From positions 1 through 37,305 of IMG/VR virus record IMGVR_UViG_3300023174_003468: a stretch of 37,305 bases of DNA; one strand, 5' to 3'. Below the pieces are notes generated by a model that was not told the DNA's origin, searched no databases, and worked only from the letters and a program-made list of their open reading frames with translations. This document shows, in pieces, positions 3,016-14,144 of the stretch. The stretch comes from a virus. Position numbers and translations under genes: made by a program. The stretch's first letter is position 1. Every line of letters starts with the position of its first letter.

Positions 3016-3981
3016 ATGAAACAAGTTGTTATTATGCCCGGTGGCTTTCACCCTTTTCACACAGGACACGCTGCCTTGTATCAATCAGCAAAGGCAGCAT
3101 TTCCTGGTGCTGATGTGTATGTGGCTGCTACCAACGACACCAGCGAACGACCTTTCCCTTTTGCACTAAAAGAAAAATTAGCACAGTTGGCCGGAATCCC
3201 TGCAGGCAAGTTTGTACAGGTCAAATCACCATTTGGTGCAGAAGAAATAACCAGCAAGTACGATCCAGAAACCACACAGTTGATTTTTATCAAGAGTGAT
3301 AAAAACAGTCAGGTTGGGCCCAGCCCCGAAGGCCCTTTTCCAGCAGAACCTGATCCTGCTACAGGTCAGTTGCCCTTGGTCACTAGAGGTCCTAGAAAAG
3401 GCCTACCAGTCAGCAATCGATTACAGTACTACAAAAAAGATCAGCCTATGGCACCCATGAGTCAACACTCATATCTTGCTTATTTGCCCACAGTGGAATT
3501 TGGCCCTGGCATGACATCAGGGTCCGAAATACGAGCCGCATGGCCCACATTAAATGAAAAACGTAAAACTGCCCTGATAATGAGCTTGTATCCCAAGGCA
3601 CAAAGCAATCCCAAGTTGGCTGCTAATGTTGTCAAAATGTTGGACAACGCCATGGGTACAGAAGTTGAAGAAGACATCAGTCGTAGAGGATTTTTACGTG
3701 GTGCAGGTGCTGCTGCTGGCATGGCAGCAGCTGGCGCTGTGGGTGCAAAAGAACTTGCGCGGCCCACAATCATAGCCATTGTGCGAATTGGCAACCAAAC
3801 AAAACAATTCAATCTTGGTACCAAATTTGATACTTCAAAACAAGCAGAAGATTTTGTTGCTGATTTTCTAGACCGACAAGGTATACAACACTACACCATT
3901 GAAATACAACGCGGCTATACCAACGAAAATCAAGGTTGGGCAGCCACTTATGAAGACTATGTGGAAGAACGTCGGTCGTAA
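3016..3981 (+). CDS. HxGH nucleotidyltransferase with a buried Tat-like segment
   Basis: Residues 1 to about 190 are a cytidylyltransferase-like adenylyl/nucleotidyltransferase (NMNAT, PanC and CoaD superfamily). VIMPGGFHPFHTGH carries the nucleotide-binding HxGH (H15, H18), and TSGSEIRAAW near residue 170 matches the C-terminal SxTxIR signature. Residues 217-221 read V-E-E-D-I and lead into S222-R-R-G-F-L-R followed by a Gly/Ala-rich hydrophobic run ending AVGAKE. This is a textbook twin-arginine signal, but placed internally. The last 75 residues (IIAIVRIGNQTKQF onward) form a small unrecognised domain. A V-E-E|D cut would expose the Tat-like signal at a new N-terminus. A near-identical element occurs in the 1183-aa protein downstream. 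The transferase assignment is solid; its substrate is not known. Confidence 0.8.
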   Translation: MKQVVIMPGGFHPFHTGHAALYQSAKAAFPGADVYVAATNDTSERPFPFALKEKLAQLAGIPAGKFVQVKSPFGAEEITSKYDPETTQLIFIKSDKNSQVGPSPEGPFPAEPDPATGQLPLVTRGPRKGLPVSNRLQYYKKDQPMAPMSQHSYLAYLPTVEFGPGMTSGSEIRAAWPTLNEKRKTALIMSLYPKAQSNPKLAANVVKMLDNAMGTEVEEDISRRGFLRGAGAAAGMAAAGAVGAKELARPTIIAIVRIGNQTKQFNLGTKFDTSKQAEDFVADFLDRQGIQHYTIEIQRGYTNENQGWAATYEDYVEERRS

Positions 3982-4982: not shown

Positions 4983-7900
4983 ATGAACATTCATGAGTTG
5001 GACTCTTACAATCTTGGTGACGCAGTACGATTTCACCGCCGTCTCAATCCCAGAATCTGGGGGCGAGACGAGCACTTGCTTCCTGAAGTGCGTGAACGAC
5101 TACTGGCCATTGCTGCAGACTTTCAAGAATTCTTGGGCGTTGAAGATCTCAACGTCGAAGACATCACCATATCAGGCTCCAACGCAGCCTACTCCTATAC
5201 AAAAAACTCAGACATTGACCTGCATCTAGTGGTCACCATGCCTGACAATCCTGTGTATCAGGAATTGTTCAACGCAAAGAAATATCAGTACAACGACGAG
5301 CACAACATACGGATTGGTGGTGCTGATGTGGAATTGTATGTGCAGCCTGCAGACCAAGCCCATCACAGTCAGGGTATCTATTCCGTTCGAGACTCAGAAT
5401 GGCGTCAGATACCACAACGCAAACGTGCGCAAGTAGATGATGCCTGTGTGCGTGACAAAGTTGCTGACTTGGATGCTAGAATACACGCCGCAATCAAAAG
5501 TCGAAATTTAGAATCCATCAGCACACTGTGGGACAAGATTAAGGCCATGCGCAAAAGCGGTCTTGAACAGCACGGTGAATTTGGTTGTGAAAACATTGCA
5601 TTTAAAATGTTGCGCAACAAAGGTTGTATTGGTGCGTTAAAAGATGCAATGATGGCTCAAAAAGATCGTGAACTCAGTTTGCGTGAAGCACCTGCCCAGC
5701 CATTTCGTTATGGCTATGGTACAGAAGTTGATGAAGCCAGCCTAGCAGACATGAGAGCAGCGTTTGCTACAGATACCAAGCCACAGAAACAAGAAGTATT
5801 TCGCAGTCCTTATGAATATGAAAAAGTAAAAAAGCAACGCGAAGCCGAGCGCGAAGAAAAGATCAAACAAATAGCACGAACTCCTGTGAAGCCTTGGCCC
5901 AGTGGAGTAGCAGAAGGACATCAAGGTCAGCCCTACAGTTCGGAAGATGGGGTCGCTGCCAGTACCAAAATGTTCTGTGAAGATAATGATGACACCTTGG
6001 TACATGATTTTATTCAACACACTGCCACGGAACTGGGTATAGACCCCATGCCTGAGATTCACTTACACACTGATCCTGAATGGAGCACCAGCAACCACAG
6101 TTTTGGTCGTTATGATCCTGACACACATACACTCAATGTCAGCATGCCCAATCGACACATACTAGATGTGTTGCGCACTGTGGCACATGAATTGGTGCAT
6201 TGCAGCCAGCATCAACAACATCATGACATGCCCCCTGACGCAGGTGAGACTGGTAGTCGCTGGGAAAACGATGCCAATGCCCGAGCTGGCATCATCATGC
6301 GTGACTGGGCCAACACACATCCTGAACATTTTGAATTGCCGCCCTTGGAAGAAAATGCATCAGGATACATTCCTAAAAATCGCAAAGAAGCCAAGCTGCC
6401 ACAGTACGCCATGGCCTTGAGTGTGGACATCAAGCCAGGCGAAGTAGGCAGACAAGCCAACAAGCTAGCCTTGCACACAGGACGCAATGGTGAGCCTGGC
6501 TTGTTGATGAAAACTGTGAATCTGCGTGAATCCAATCAACTCACTCTCAAGGACTTTGTGGTTGCAGTAAGTCCACATGCGCTGGAACAGTGCTACAATC
6601 GTGGTATAGATGCTGACCAAGTAGATGATATTTTGCGAAATATCAGCAGTGCAAAAAACAGTATCATGGGACAACCAGCAGGCGCCGCATTTATTTTACA
6701 CAACGGCCAAGGCACAGCCCTAGGCATGAGAAAACTGAAAGGCAAACAATTGACCTTGGCCACTGTGTATCGAACTGGTAGAGATTTTGTCAAGGGCAAA
6801 TATCCAACTTTTCAGATTGCTTCCGGCACAAAAGATGTAGATGAAGATATTTCAAGACGCAACTTTGTTCGTGGCTTGGGTGCAGCGGCTGGCATGGCTG
6901 CCACAGGCGCAGGTGCCAAACAATTACGAGACTATGAACCCAAGCAAGTGGCCAACATCACTCAAATAGTTGATGCTCCAGATGCATTTGCGCCAGACAC
7001 ACAACAACTATTGCATGACAAGTATGTGTACAACAGACTGACCAAAGACGCTTTCCTGCAGATGCGAGCTGATCCTGATTTTGCTTCCATGGTTGAATAT
7101 GAGCAAGTGTTTAGTCAACCCATGAACAGCAAAGTGACTCTCATGTTCAACAACAAAAATGACAAGGGTTACTGGGTTACTCCTGCTGTGTTTGACGCTA
7201 TCAGCAAAGAAATGGCAGCTGATCAACTGCTGGCACGAAACAAACGTCCTGGCGGTGTGCCCATGGCAAAAGATCCCATGGCCACAGACAAGTTGCCCAA
7301 CACCATGCGTCAAAGTGCTCCGCCCACGCCAGGTGCCGAACAAGATCGAGTGTATCGCGGCATTGGTGCCAACCGTGCCACAGAATCCGTGCAGGAGAGT
7401 GCTGACGATTATCATATACGCAACACAGAAAAATTAGATCAAGTATTGGCACGTTGTTGTGCCATGATTGAACGGGGACAACGCCAAAATCCCGATCGGT
7501 ACGGTATGGTGGCAGCCTGTGTGATTGATCCTGAAAATCGTCATGTGTATGGTATAAACCTGCCTGGGCCCGATGGCACACGCAGACATGCTGAACGTGT
7601 GGCCATAGACAAATATCGCAAGCAACACGGTGATGTTCCCCCAGGCAGTATTGTGGTCACAACATGCAGTCCTTGCAACGCACCCATGGATGAACGTGCA
7701 GGCGAGAGTTGTAAAGATCTGTTGAACTCAGCAGGCATACACAAAGTATATTGTGGATACATTGATCCCACACAGCACGATGATGAAGATGCTGACTTTG
7801 CTGTGGGCCTCACACAAAACGACGAGCTGTGGGAAGCCTGCAAAGCATTTGCTGACACATTCCTGCATGAGGATGAACTAGAAGAAGGATGGCGCAATGC

Positions 7901-8534
7901 TTTGGCAGGGGCAGCAGCCGCAGCCACCATGGCATTCACACCAGCACCAGCCAACTCAACAGCCGCACCCACTATAGATCCCTCGGCACAACCAGCGGCT
8001 GTACAACAAACACCCGGCGCTGCCGCTGAAAGTGCATTGAGCAGAGCCGCACAGGCAGCAGGTATCAAAGGCGTGGAACTGGCACAGTTCTTGGCACAGT
8101 GTGCGCATGAAACTGGAGACTTTGCGCACCTTGAAGAACTGGGTGGCAACCGGTATCTTGCCAAGTATGATCCCAGTGTGAACCCTGCCAAAGCAAAGGC
8201 CCTAGGCAATACCGAAGCCGGAGATGGCGCCCGGTACAAAGGCCGTGGATTCATACAAATCACTGGCAAGGCCAACTATGCTAATGCTGGTCAAGCCTTG
8301 GGCATAGACCTTGTGAACAATCCTGAATTGGCAGCCAAGCCTGATGTGGCTGCTAAGATTGCTGTGTGGTACTGGCAGAACCGTGTGGCTCCCTATGTGC
8401 AAGACTTTTCAGACACACGTGGTGTGACCAAACGCATCAACCCTGGATTACAAGGCCTACAAGATCGTGTGGACAACTTCAAAGACTATCAACAACAAGT
8501 GGCCTCAGTGGCACAACCCAAGGCGGTAGCATGA
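4983..8534 (+). CDS. Giant multidomain polyprotein: nucleotidyltransferase, zincin, DUF4258-like, Tat-like, deaminase, GH19
   Basis: 1183 residues. Domains in order: (a) about 30-230, a pol-beta-type nucleotidyltransferase with GSNAAYSYTKNSDIDLHL (G-S and D-x-D). (b) V309-A-E|G312, a protease-site-like linker. (c) About 330-450, a zinc metallopeptidase H402-E-L-V-H406 with E428 as likely third ligand. (d) About 525-600, 'SPHALEQCYNRGI...VDDIL', like DUF4258/BrnT-type RNase toxins. (e) V619-D-E|D622, then S624-R-R-N-F-V-R and a Gly/Ala hydrophobic run (Tat-like). (f) About 800-950, a cytidine-deaminase-like domain, H869-A-E871 with P897-C898 and C910, spaced as in RibD. (g) L966-E-E|G969, then a signal-like GWRNALAGAAAAATMAF. 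(h) 1015-1183, GH19 chitinase/lysozyme with H1042-E1043-T and YKGRGFIQITGKANY. I infer that it is a packaged precursor cut by a prohead-type protease, yielding separate injected or lytic enzymes. Domain calls are stronger than that inference. Confidence 0.8.
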   Translation: MNIHELDSYNLGDAVRFHRRLNPRIWGRDEHLLPEVRERLLAIAADFQEFLGVEDLNVEDITISGSNAAYSYTKNSDIDLHLVVTMPDNPVYQELFNAKKYQYNDEHNIRIGGADVELYVQPADQAHHSQGIYSVRDSEWRQIPQRKRAQVDDACVRDKVADLDARIHAAIKSRNLESISTLWDKIKAMRKSGLEQHGEFGCENIAFKMLRNKGCIGALKDAMMAQKDRELSLREAPAQPFRYGYGTEVDEASLADMRAAFATDTKPQKQEVFRSPYEYEKVKKQREAEREEKIKQIARTPVKPWPSGVAEGHQGQPYSSEDGVAASTKMFCEDNDDTLVHDFIQHTATELGIDPMPEIHLHTDPEWSTSNHSFGRYDPDTHTLNVSMPNRHILDVLRTVAHELVHCSQHQQHHDMPPDAGETGSRWENDANARAGIIMRDWANTHPEHFELPPLEENASGYIPKNRKEAKLPQYAMALSVDIKPGEVGRQANKLALHTGRNGEPGLLMKTVNLRESNQLTLKDFVVAVSPHALEQCYNRGIDADQVDDILRNISSAKNSIMGQPAGAAFILHNGQGTALGMRKLKGKQLTLATVYRTGRDFVKGKYPTFQIASGTKDVDEDISRRNFVRGLGAAAGMAATGAGAKQLRDYEPKQVANITQIVDAPDAFAPDTQQLLHDKYVYNRLTKDAFLQMRADPDFASMVEYEQVFSQPMNSKVTLMFNNKNDKGYWVTPAVFDAISKEMAADQLLARNKRPGGVPMAKDPMATDKLPNTMRQSAPPTPGAEQDRVYRGIGANRATESVQESADDYHIRNTEKLDQVLARCCAMIERGQRQNPDRYGMVAACVIDPENRHVYGINLPGPDGTRRHAERVAIDKYRKQHGDVPPGSIVVTTCSPCNAPMDERAGESCKDLLNSAGIHKVYCGYIDPTQHDDEDADFAVGLTQNDELWEACKAFADTFLHEDELEEGWRNALAGAAAAATMAFTPAPANSTAAPTIDPSAQPAAVQQTPGAAAESALSRAAQAAGIKGVELAQFLAQCAHETGDFAHLEELGGNRYLAKYDPSVNPAKAKALGNTEAGDGARYKGRGFIQITGKANYANAGQALGIDLVNNPELAAKPDVAAKIAVWYWQNRVAPYVQDFSDTRGVTKRINPGLQGLQDRVDNFKDYQQQVASVAQPKAVA

Positions 8535-11470: not shown

Positions 11471-13116
11471 TCATAAGTGAACTTTTTGAAACCCCACAAC
11501 AGTGCCCCGAATGCGGTGGCATCAGTTTCAGCAATCTAATTTTAGCTGAAAAGAAAGACGCCTGCTACTACAAAGTCAAGGCTAGTGCCAAGGTATGGCC
11601 GTCGGCCTATGCATCTGGACGCCTGGTTCAGTGCCGCAAAAAAGGCGCTGGCAACTATGGCAACAAGTCGGAAGGTGTGGCGGAAGGCTCCTTGAATGAA
11701 TTTGCAATACCTAGTGGTAACGATGGTGATTCAGGACGTTGGTATAACGATGATGAGCTTGCTGATATCATTGGTGATGATTGGTTTGAAGACTTTGATG
11801 TCAGCAACGATGGATTTAATATTGATGCCTACGGCGAAAAAGCCAAGAAGAATTTAGTGGGCTATGCAAATACATGGTTTGATGACAAAGGTTATGATGT
11901 TCACGTAATGGGTGTAGAACACAATGATGTTGATCATGATTTACAATGGTACATTGTTGGTAGTTTCCATAATCCTCGCTTTGCCAATGAAAGCGTGGCG
12001 GAAGAACAAGAGTTGGACGAAAAGTGGAGCAAAAAATACAAGAGTTCTATCAACTGTGCCAACCCCCGGGGTTTCTCACAAAAGGCTCACTGTGCTGGTC
12101 GCAACAAGAATGAAGATGTAGCAGAAAATGCTGTACCGCAACTGAGTGTTCAACAGTTGGCCGCCATCAGTGACGAAGCATTGGATCAAGCCTATGGTTA
12201 TGGACGTAGTACACCCAGCAACACCTTTGGTTGGCAAGCCAATTTGAAGTCAGCTGCCTATGCCAAACAAATGATTGATCAGGGTGTGACAGATATTGAA
12301 GCCATCAGTGATGCCATTCACAAGGGATGGAATACTACTGCTCAAGCATTTGTGCAAGATCCTGAACAATTTGATGACACTGCAAAATTGGCAGCAGCCG
12401 GCAAACTAGAAGCCAAACTTCAACAACGAGCACAGTTGATGAAACAAAATTATGCTCAACTGCCTGAAGAAGAAAAAGAAAAAGACCGTGTGGTTGCCCG
12501 TGCATTGTTGCAGGCCATTCGTGGTGAACAACAGCAAGGTGTGGCGGAAGATCAATTGGATGAAAAGTCTGTGAGCCAAGCACAGTTCCGTACCATGGCC
12601 GGGGCGGCACACAATCCTGAATTTGCTAGAAAAGTTGGCATCAGTCAAGATGTTGCTCAAGAGTTCAATCAGGCAGATAAAAAAAGCAACTACAAAAAAT
12701 TGCCAGCCCGTGCTAACGAGGGCGGTGTAGGATCAGGACGTCCTGACCCAACAGTGTGGGACACTTCACCAGGCAAAGTGGGTCGTGTAGAAAAAACTGC
12801 CACTGGCTTGCGTCATTACGCTGATCCCAGTCGTTATGGTGGCACCATACCTGAACCAGAACATGATAAATTGTTGACTCCACAAGAACGTTGGAGAATG
12901 GACAAAATAACTCAACCCATTGATGACATGGACGAAGGCGAGCAACAACCGGGTGCTGACTATCGTGATCCCAAAGAAGTCGACTACGATGACGAATACG
13001 ATGCCATGGTGGCCAGAGTTAAAAAGTTGGCTGGACTGGGTCCTATGAAAACTGTGTACGATCCTGCCAAGCGACAATATCGCAACATGCCCACAGCAGT
13101 GCAACCTAAAAAATGA
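11467..13116 (+). CDS. Mosaic cargo protein of five modules joined by VAE / LDE linkers
   Basis: 549 residues with no single recognised enzyme. Modules in order: leader MIISELFE|T and a Cys module (QCPECGG, then CYYKVKASAKVWPSAYASG); linker GVAE|GSLNE; an acidic alpha/beta module with WYNDDELADIIGDDWFEDF; linker SVAEEQELDE|K; a short Cys module KYKSSINCANPRGFSQKAHC; linker DVAE|N; a helical module (LSVQQLAAISDEALDQAYGYG) running to a Glu/Lys coiled-coil-like stretch; linker GVAEDQLDE|K; and a module with AQFRTMAGAAHNPEFARKVG. Then comes a low-complexity Gly/Asp-rich tail. The linkers fit prohead-protease cleavage (hydrophobic-x-E). Three of them share the exact DNA 10-mer GTGGCGGAAG. I infer a precursor cut into small capsid-internal peptides; the module functions are unknown. 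Confidence 0.7.
   Translation: MIISELFETPQQCPECGGISFSNLILAEKKDACYYKVKASAKVWPSAYASGRLVQCRKKGAGNYGNKSEGVAEGSLNEFAIPSGNDGDSGRWYNDDELADIIGDDWFEDFDVSNDGFNIDAYGEKAKKNLVGYANTWFDDKGYDVHVMGVEHNDVDHDLQWYIVGSFHNPRFANESVAEEQELDEKWSKKYKSSINCANPRGFSQKAHCAGRNKNEDVAENAVPQLSVQQLAAISDEALDQAYGYGRSTPSNTFGWQANLKSAAYAKQMIDQGVTDIEAISDAIHKGWNTTAQAFVQDPEQFDDTAKLAAAGKLEAKLQQRAQLMKQNYAQLPEEEKEKDRVVARALLQAIRGEQQQGVAEDQLDEKSVSQAQFRTMAGAAHNPEFARKVGISQDVAQEFNQADKKSNYKKLPARANEGGVGSGRPDPTVWDTSPGKVGRVEKTATGLRHYADPSRYGGTIPEPEHDKLLTPQERWRMDKITQPIDDMDEGEQQPGADYRDPKEVDYDDEYDAMVARVKKLAGLGPMKTVYDPAKRQYRNMPTAVQPKK
11677..11686 (+). repeat. GTGGCGGAAG linker repeat (copy 1 of 5)
   Basis: An exact 10-base repeat encoding V-A-E at a module boundary. 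Other exact copies are at 11995-12004, 12541-12550, 13593-13602 and 15816-15825, all in the same reading frame relation and all at linkers. Two variants with GTAGCAGAA occur near 5907 and 12119, and one with GTGGCAGAA near 13973. Confidence 0.75.
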
Positions 13117-14144
13117 GAGCACAAGAGTTTGTCGCCGAAGCTTTTGACAACCCTTACAAGGGCAAATGGGAAAAGAGTGATTACGGTGACGTTGATCTAA
13201 ACACAAAATTACCCGACGGCACATATCTCAACATCATGTTCAATCAAGAATATGACGGAGAAGGTGACGAAGTCACGCATGTTGAGTTCCATAGAAACAA
13301 CAGCCAAGAAGTCACAGGTGAAGGTGATGCACAACGAATCTTTGCCACGGTGTTAAACGCTATACAAAAATACATCAAAAAATACAAACCTTCAAAATTG
13401 AGTTTTTCAGCTAGTAAAGCAACTGATCCAACAATATATTATGAGCCTGACCAGCCTCAACCAAATCCTGAGAGTCGTGCCAAGTTGTATGACAGACTGG
13501 TACAGCGTTATGCTCGGGCCTGGGGATATCAAGCCTTCCGTGCTGACAATGGTGATTTAGTTATATATGAATTGAGTAGATTAAAGCAAGATGTGGCGGA
13601 AGGCGAAAGCAATGATACTGCCATAAGTTTATCCAAGTTGGGTAAATTTCATCCTGGCGCAGATACACTGGCAGAATTTGTTCCTGAACGAGCCTCTGCA
13701 CGATATGCCTTGCACCCTGATAAATGGGAATCAACCTTCTACAGTTTGACCAACAAAGATTCAGACAAATTAAAATACTACGGGCCAAAAAAGATTTCAA
13801 TTCCTCCAGGAACTCTAGTGGGCGACATGGCCATTGCCAACAAGTTCTATAGAGCAAAAACACCTGAAGAACAAGAACAATATGCTGAATTATATAAAGC
13901 ATCACTAAAGCCATATCCTGTTGATGTCAGCGAGTATCGTATGCCTGAATTGTTGATTCCCAAGCACGGCGTGGCAGAACAACAACTGGACGAACTCAGT
14001 TTCCTGGGAAGTGAATGCACCAAAGACTGTTCCGGACACCGTGCTGGATATGAGTGGTCCAAACGCAAAGGCCTACGACAAGCCAACAGCCCGTACAGTC
14101 CCAGTTTCAACAAAGGCGCTGCCCTGGCAGTGGCCGGCAAATAA
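13113..14144 (+). CDS. Mosaic cargo protein with MRAQEFVAE|A leader
   Basis: 343 residues. The leader MRAQEFVAE|AFDNP is the best match here to T4 internal-protein capsid-targeting sequences, which end in a (hydrophobic)-x-E|A cut site. Module 1 (about 12-150) is a conserved-looking alpha/beta domain (GTYLNIMFNQEYDGEGDEVTHVEFHRN; landmarks LNIMFNQ and HVEFHRN) ending in YARAWGYQAFRADNG. Linker DVAE|GES (nt 13593 repeat) leads to module 2 (about 165-285), an uncharacterised segment. Linker GVAEQQLDE|L leads to a short C-terminal Cys module (SECTKDCSGHRAGYEWSKRKG) that also occurs, by memory, at the ends of other marine phage proteins. No catalytic motif is evident. It is likely packaged and processed. 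Confidence 0.7.
   Translation: MRAQEFVAEAFDNPYKGKWEKSDYGDVDLNTKLPDGTYLNIMFNQEYDGEGDEVTHVEFHRNNSQEVTGEGDAQRIFATVLNAIQKYIKKYKPSKLSFSASKATDPTIYYEPDQPQPNPESRAKLYDRLVQRYARAWGYQAFRADNGDLVIYELSRLKQDVAEGESNDTAISLSKLGKFHPGADTLAEFVPERASARYALHPDKWESTFYSLTNKDSDKLKYYGPKKISIPPGTLVGDMAIANKFYRAKTPEEQEQYAELYKASLKPYPVDVSEYRMPELLIPKHGVAEQQLDELSFLGSECTKDCSGHRAGYEWSKRKGLRQANSPYSPSFNKGAALAVAGK

Follow-up and report, generated by a model that had tools for sequence, protein, structure and literature searches.

Comparison of sequences indicates that many uncultured T4-like phages carry Tat signals, and probably Sec signals as well, that are buried behind predicted head-protease sites in packing-type proteins. The window, a 37,305-nucleotide stretch of viral DNA, holds two such candidate modules (Table 1; the slash marks a predicted cut throughout). 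Our preferred reading, to which we assign a probability of roughly 0.58, is that these are masked export signals on virion-delivered proteins, which would be unmasked by the prohead protease and read by the host Tat or Sec system after injection.

A Tat-type signal inside a nucleotidyltransferase ORF

The first ~90 residues of the 321-residue protein weakly resemble a cytidylyltransferase-type domain, as PF01467 gives 21 bits over residues 6–92 in a profile search, a score that lies at the PF01467 cut-off. The preliminary description had singled out a VEE/DI site followed by SRRGFLR and a Gly/Ala run ending in AVGA, and this arrangement is present as described. Residues 217–244 are VEE/DISRRGFLRGAGAAAGMAAAGAVGA, i.e., V217-E218-E219/D220-I221-S222-R223-R224-G-F-L-R-G and then an Ala/Gly-rich run to AVGA-244, with VEE beginning at window position 3664 and DIS at 3673. 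The NCBIfam profile TIGR01409 (TAT_signal_seq) scores 21.7 bits over residues 221–241, above its cut-off of 16.7, whereas the Pfam profile TAT_signal (PF10518) scores 19.1 bits over residues 220–240, under its cut-off of 22.7. The twin-Arg consensus S/T-R-R-x-F-L-K/R is satisfied by SRRGFLR, and a weakly hydrophobic h-region and an A-x-A type c-region are present (AGAAAGMAAAGAVGA/KE); most homologous Tat modules end in AQA, ALA, ARA or AEA. This signal is located at residue 220 of the primary product rather than at its N-terminus, and would become N-terminal only if a cut occurred at E219. The motif is counted twice in the window proteins, against a mean of 0.02 after shuffling.

The tripeptide in front of the signal, previously called a protease-like site, conforms as VxE, with Val at P3, to the rule for T4 gp21, which cleaves after L/I-x-E (PMC9026906). 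VAE is enriched in the neighbouring polyproteins, with nine occurrences in the window polyproteins against 1.4 expected, and four of GVAE against 0.09 expected. In the longer polyproteins, VAE linkers join the domains. The same nucleotidyltransferase is found without the module in L004 and L008, which read GTEVAE/NQGWAATYE where the window reads GTEVEE/ (Tat signal and domain) ... TNE/NQGWAATYE; the cassette thus falls exactly at a VAE linker.

A separate small Tat protein could conceivably arise without proteolysis, from an internal start at the ATG at 3652 (MGTEVEEDISRRGFLRG). This ATG is in frame, seven codons before DIS, and a Met just upstream is also present in G001. However, the ATG has no clear ribosome-binding site, and the Met is not conserved (G006 reads TIGGIDE, and the distance to the nearest upstream Met in other copies ranges from 1 to 82 residues). 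On these two grounds the internal start was rejected as the source of such a protein, and we consider it extremely improbable.

The preliminary description missed two further export-type segments, a second Tat copy and a twin-Arg-less Ala-rich segment, which are both located in the ORF at 4983–8534. The second Tat module, VDE/DISRRNFVRGLGAAAGMAATGAGA, reads DVDE/DISRRNFVRG and scores 16.7 bits with TIGR01409 within the whole protein and 20.5 bits alone.

Table 1. Positions in the window of the ORFs, domains, predicted cut sites and export-type segments discussed in the text
Feature	Positions	Strand	Remark or basis
Nucleotidyltransferase ORF	3016-3981	+	321 aa
Nucleotidyltransferase-like domain, aa 1-219	3016..3672	+	Ends at predicted prohead-protease site V217-E-E219
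Predicted cleavage tripeptide VEE	3664..3672	+	T4 gp21 rule, hydrophobic-x-E/
Candidate Tat signal DISRRGFLRGAGAAAGMAAAGAVGA, aa 220-244, buried until predicted cleavage	3673..3747	+	TIGR01409 and Pfam TAT_signal scores
Small domain, aa 250-299	3763..3912	+	Predicted beta-beta-alpha-beta
C-terminal tail GYTNE/NQGWAATYEDYVEERRS	3913..3978	+	NQGWAAT directly after VAE in module-less relatives
1183-aa polyprotein	4983..8534	+	NTP-transferase-like, GVAEG linker, metalloprotease-like and other domains, Tat module, deaminase, Ala-rich segment, GH19 lysozyme
Second candidate Tat module VDE/DISRRNFVRGLGAAAGMAATGAGAKQL, aa 619-648 of 1183-aa polyprotein	6837..6926	+	Sequence, TIGR01409
Twin-Arg-less Sec-like module LEE/GWRNALAGAAAAATMAFTPAPA, aa 966-990 (LEE/GWRNAL..)	7878..7952	+	Sequence; homologous E/GW[KR] modules
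GH19 muralytic domain after Sec-like module	8025..8522	+	PF00182 56 bits; phrog_181 endolysin 154 bits
VAE linkers GVAEG, SVAEE, DVAEN, GVAED in neighbouring polyprotein	11674..12555	+	Predicted protease sites
T4-like capsid-targeting peptide MRAQEFVAE/ of neighbouring protein	13113..13139	+	cf. T4 ipII/ipIII MKTYQEFIAE

Recurrence of the module and its abutting glutamate

A first scan of IMG/VR with the pattern E-[DE]-I-S-R-R-x-F-phi-R-G gave 11 loci, every one within a large phage ORF. Because this pattern itself specified the Glu, the scan was repeated with nothing specified before the Ser (S-R-R-G-F-L-R-G-x-[GA]-A-x-A), on viral contigs and, as a cellular control, on 84,980 prokaryote species represented by one genome each. 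In this Glu-free scan, Glu lies three residues before the S/T in 18 of 19 non-identical internal viral copies versus 1 of 34 cellular copies, and the combination of Glu and a hydrophobic P3 is found in 16 of 19 and 0 of 34, respectively; the viral-versus-cellular comparison gives a Fisher p of 5e-12, for homologous copies that are not fully independent. Dozens of internal copies were obtained from the IMG/VR scans. Among 46 distinct modules, the RR is invariant (46/46), P2 is variable, and P3 is occupied by V, I, L or M in 39; Thr takes the P3 position at some sites (TKE, TDE), and one locus (L236) has no abutting Glu. The Glu might be part of the module for some other reason than cleavage.

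The core of the module is indistinguishable from cellular Tat signals, a likeness that would suit gene-fusion relics, that is, captured cellular Tat proteins fused behind phage domains with the signal now disused. Such relics are, however, hard to reconcile with the constancy of RR, F-L and Glu across diverse proteins while other positions vary, or with a module that sits at linker junctions, has come to precede several cargoes and, on one and the same cargo, is swapped for another type of signal (see below), and we consider this origin very unlikely.

Among proteins with a complete 5' end, a start of the type MR[AF]xE[FL][IV].E is present in 37 of 49 GH19 proteins and 40 of 41 transglycosylase proteins, compared with ~6% of the remaining ORFs under a comparable rule. 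The T4 proteins ipII and ipIII begin with MKTYQEFIAE/A, and ten residues of ipIII are enough for packaging in T4 (PMC9026906). In the shortest proteins the targeting peptide, the cut site and the export signal adjoin directly: L147 reads MRSYEFISE/IDRRGFLGALGAG (IDRRGFLGA) and continues into GH19, L180 reads MRATEFVTE/MDRRGFLRG, L200 reads MRAKEFVSE/DMSRRGFLGA, and L235, a LysM plus SLT protein, reads MRASEFIAE/DLSRRGFLRG. A short targeting peptide ahead of the RR would not by itself mask a Tat signal.

The idea put forward in the preliminary description, that a protein packaged in the virion would have its Tat signal exposed by a cut after Glu, is partly supported by these comparisons, beyond what one sequence could offer. 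The fixed Glu, the abutment of the targeting peptide, the VAE junction and a relative found in S-CREM2 virions (see below) point towards it; the nucleotidyltransferase of the window, which has no N-terminal capsid-targeting peptide of its own, points the other way.

Cargo domains behind the export-type segments

GH19 domains, LysM-transglycosylase domains and the small beta-beta-alpha-beta domain appear as recurrent cargoes behind these predicted segments, and the cargoes are often peptidoglycan enzymes by their profiles. A search for GH19 domains without reference to signals yielded 55 distinct upstream regions. A Tat module occurs in eleven, always immediately preceded by Glu, and another hydrophobic segment, mainly of the E/GW[KR] type, in 26; the other 18 fit neither rule, several of these having E/GWKDW and a shorter run. 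The LysM/transglycosylase search found Tat in 8 of 48 proteins, with an abutting Glu in seven of those, and no signal in the other 40 (mainly PG_binding plus SLT), so not all muralytic cargoes are equipped with a signal. We note that many T4-like phages (L240-L303) encode MRFxEF-type capsid-targeting-like proteins with PG_binding and SLT and no export signal. Short GH19 endolysin genes with neither targeting peptide nor signal are present in G001 (101546-102172) and G006 (131823-132449), and also in G002, G003, G007, G014 and G015.

An RR-less, Ala/Gly-rich family of the form E/GW[KR][DES]... precedes GH19 in many phages (window 7878-8522; L144-L223), and Glu stands directly before the GW in 39 of 47 distinct GW-type copies. 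These GW segments are possibly Sec signals or membrane anchors. We also note a 644-residue protein in G014 (179653-181584, minus strand) that combines a segment of the GW type, LTE/GWKSALGSAALAGAMAMG, with a Tat module, LEE/IDRRGFLKG.

If the segments were uncleaved membrane anchors or hairpins, then once exposed they would keep the cargo attached to the inner membrane, where it might shape the DNA-entry conduit, and the Ala/Gly-rich composition, low hydrophobicity and variable c-region of the GW-type segments are in keeping with such a role. A plain anchor, however, needs neither the RR that is strict in all 46 Tat-type modules nor the A-x-A that mostly follows there, ahead of a polar stretch. 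Anchoring is accordingly improbable as an account of the segments.

An export-type segment lies ahead of the small domain in 14 of 14 distinct copies, 13 of the Tat type and one of the GW type, so the two signal types interchange on the same cargo; some of the 14 copies were first found via the signal, and L003, L146, L206, L371 and L373-L375 via a domain. The GW-type copy, L206, has the same small-domain subtype as the Tat-bearing L011 and L017. Structure prediction gives the domain a beta-beta-alpha-beta arrangement with a pLDDT of 90; the fold search returned no match at E<=0.001, with none of the PDB matches better than E 0.3, and a Pfam hit is absent for two homologues.

The main rival to the proposed virion delivery is export in the producing cell, where the prohead protease, or toleration of the short N-terminal peptide as an n-region, would yield exported muralytic enzymes for lysis or wall remodelling at a late stage of infection and any virion location would be incidental. 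The GH19 and SLT cargoes are indeed endolysin-like, and the Tat signals of L147, L180 and L235 are near enough to the start to function uncut. Modules at residues 200-1000, on the other hand, need a cut to become N-terminal, and gp21-type proteases work inside the prohead. Furthermore, the same signals are found on non-muralytic cargoes, and the targeting-like N-terminus is common to unrelated domains. A separate, short, signal-less GH19 endolysin is encoded in seven module-bearing or related genomes; in two of them, G001 and G006, it stands alongside a signal-bearing GH19, which is therefore not the sole or dedicated lysis muramidase there. Taken together, we regard export from the producing cell as unlikely, though less so than the other alternatives.

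Proposed virion delivery and comparison with known systems

No head genes are present in the 37-kb window fragment, where gp21 and gp23 were not detected, and neither gp21 (PF03420) nor gp23 (PF07068) was detected in its 225-kb close relative G001. Most module-bearing contigs, many of which are fragments, have no detectable gp21 or gp23. In the 250-kb G015, the genes gp20, gp21 (Peptidase S77, E 8e-29) and gp23 are arranged as in T4, and a module that reads GMAE/DMTRRGFLRG is also present. G003, which has a nucleotidyltransferase 54% identical to that of the window, carries a T4-type gp23 at the contig end.

The cytidylyltransferase gp154 of the cultured cyanophage S-CREM2 was detected in virions by MS, and the authors state that virion-associated enzymes may be co-purified contaminants (PMC10665884). 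This protein is 39% identical to a G007 protein that bears the module GEVEE/DISRRSFLRG, and shows distant similarity only (E 0.013) to the nucleotidyltransferase of the window. We note that gp154 (L310 609-1469) starts with MKNFSSFLTE/A, a T4-like targeting peptide that is unmentioned in its annotation.

The case for the anatomy of the modules is strong: they recur, their Glu is fixed and their RR invariant, capsid-targeting-like N-termini accompany them, and one module genome has a T4-type protease. That the proteins are packaged, cleaved, injected and exported, and what the cargo is used for, are each inferred. In the proposed sequence of events, the protein would be packed into the prohead via a T4-type N-terminal peptide, MR[AF]xEF[IV]xE, or within VAE-linked polyproteins. 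During head maturation, a gp21-type prohead protease would cut after the Glu of hydrophobic-x-E, which would remove the targeting peptide or upstream domain and create a new N-terminus, D-[IL]-S-R-R-x-F-L... (Tat) or G-W-K... (Sec-like). Upon infection the matured protein would enter the cytoplasm by injection together with the DNA. There the exposed signal would be recognised by the Tat (or Sec) system of the host, which would export the protein and remove the signal at A-x-A. The cargo, often GH19 or LysM plus lytic transglycosylase and, for one module of this window, the small domain, would thus end in the periplasm. We put slightly better than even odds on delivery in these two steps, in which head maturation doubles as signal-peptide unmasking and proteins carried in the capsid reach the new host export-ready, with an N-terminal Tat or Sec signal, and are sent on by that host to its periplasm.

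The usual view of virion-injected phage proteins is that their site of action is the cytoplasm or the entry conduit. If the proposed mechanism is true, it would constitute a new delivery route, by which the periplasm is open to the phage before any phage gene is expressed, and it would explain the muralytic enzymes within capsid-targeted polyproteins. The new N-terminus, the dependence on Tat and the hosts served could each be predicted from sequence, and the virion polyproteins of uncultured T4-like phages would become interpretable because cut sites, signals and cargo are directly readable.

Targeting-peptide internal proteins that are cut after Glu and Tat signals are each known separately; their combination was not found in a literature search or in 50,697 phage records. 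Specifically, the literature search found no paper that describes a Tat signal in a virion protein or one that follows a prohead-protease site, and tblastn with the module-plus-domain sequence and a 41-residue consensus found no cultured phage with the module in the 50,697 records, where the low-complexity filter may hide the Ala-rich part. The GH19 matches in the isolates Cr30, Motura, Mx1 and S-B68 were set aside as conventional or baseplate-region proteins with no module or targeting peptide. For phage Mu, authors have raised as a speculation that Tat may be hijacked by the releasin gp25, in an arrangement that differs from the present one.

T4 IPI-IPIII and Alt resemble the proteins described here in having an N-terminal MKTYQEFIAE/-type peptide that is removed by gp21 with a cut after Glu, and diverse cargoes; the T4 proteins are injected (PMC9026906). 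The T4 internal proteins, however, have no export signal after the cut and are known to act in the cytoplasm, whereas the modules here have an export-type segment behind the predicted cut. The ejection proteins of phiKZ and SPN3US are processed after Glu by a gp21-related protease and ejected into the cell according to the available part of the published account, which, unlike the modules here, describes no Tat or Sec signal behind the cut sites (PMC5694885). S-CREM2 gp154 shares the targeting-like N-terminus, is homologous to the G007 module protein and is found in virions (PMC10665884), but has no Tat module.

Cellular Tat signals (TIGR01409, PF10518) have S-R-R-x-F-L-R/G, the Ala/Gly-rich h-region and A-x-A in common with the phage modules, which differ in their location, either hundreds of residues into an ORF or after a targeting peptide, with hydrophobic-x-E/D ahead of them. 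Finally, signal-arrest-release and other signal-bearing endolysins, such as that of phage HP1, likewise have a muralytic domain behind an N-terminal export segment. Those endolysins are synthesised in the cell that is being lysed and exported there, whereas the signals described here follow a predicted head-protease site and a separate endolysin is also encoded.
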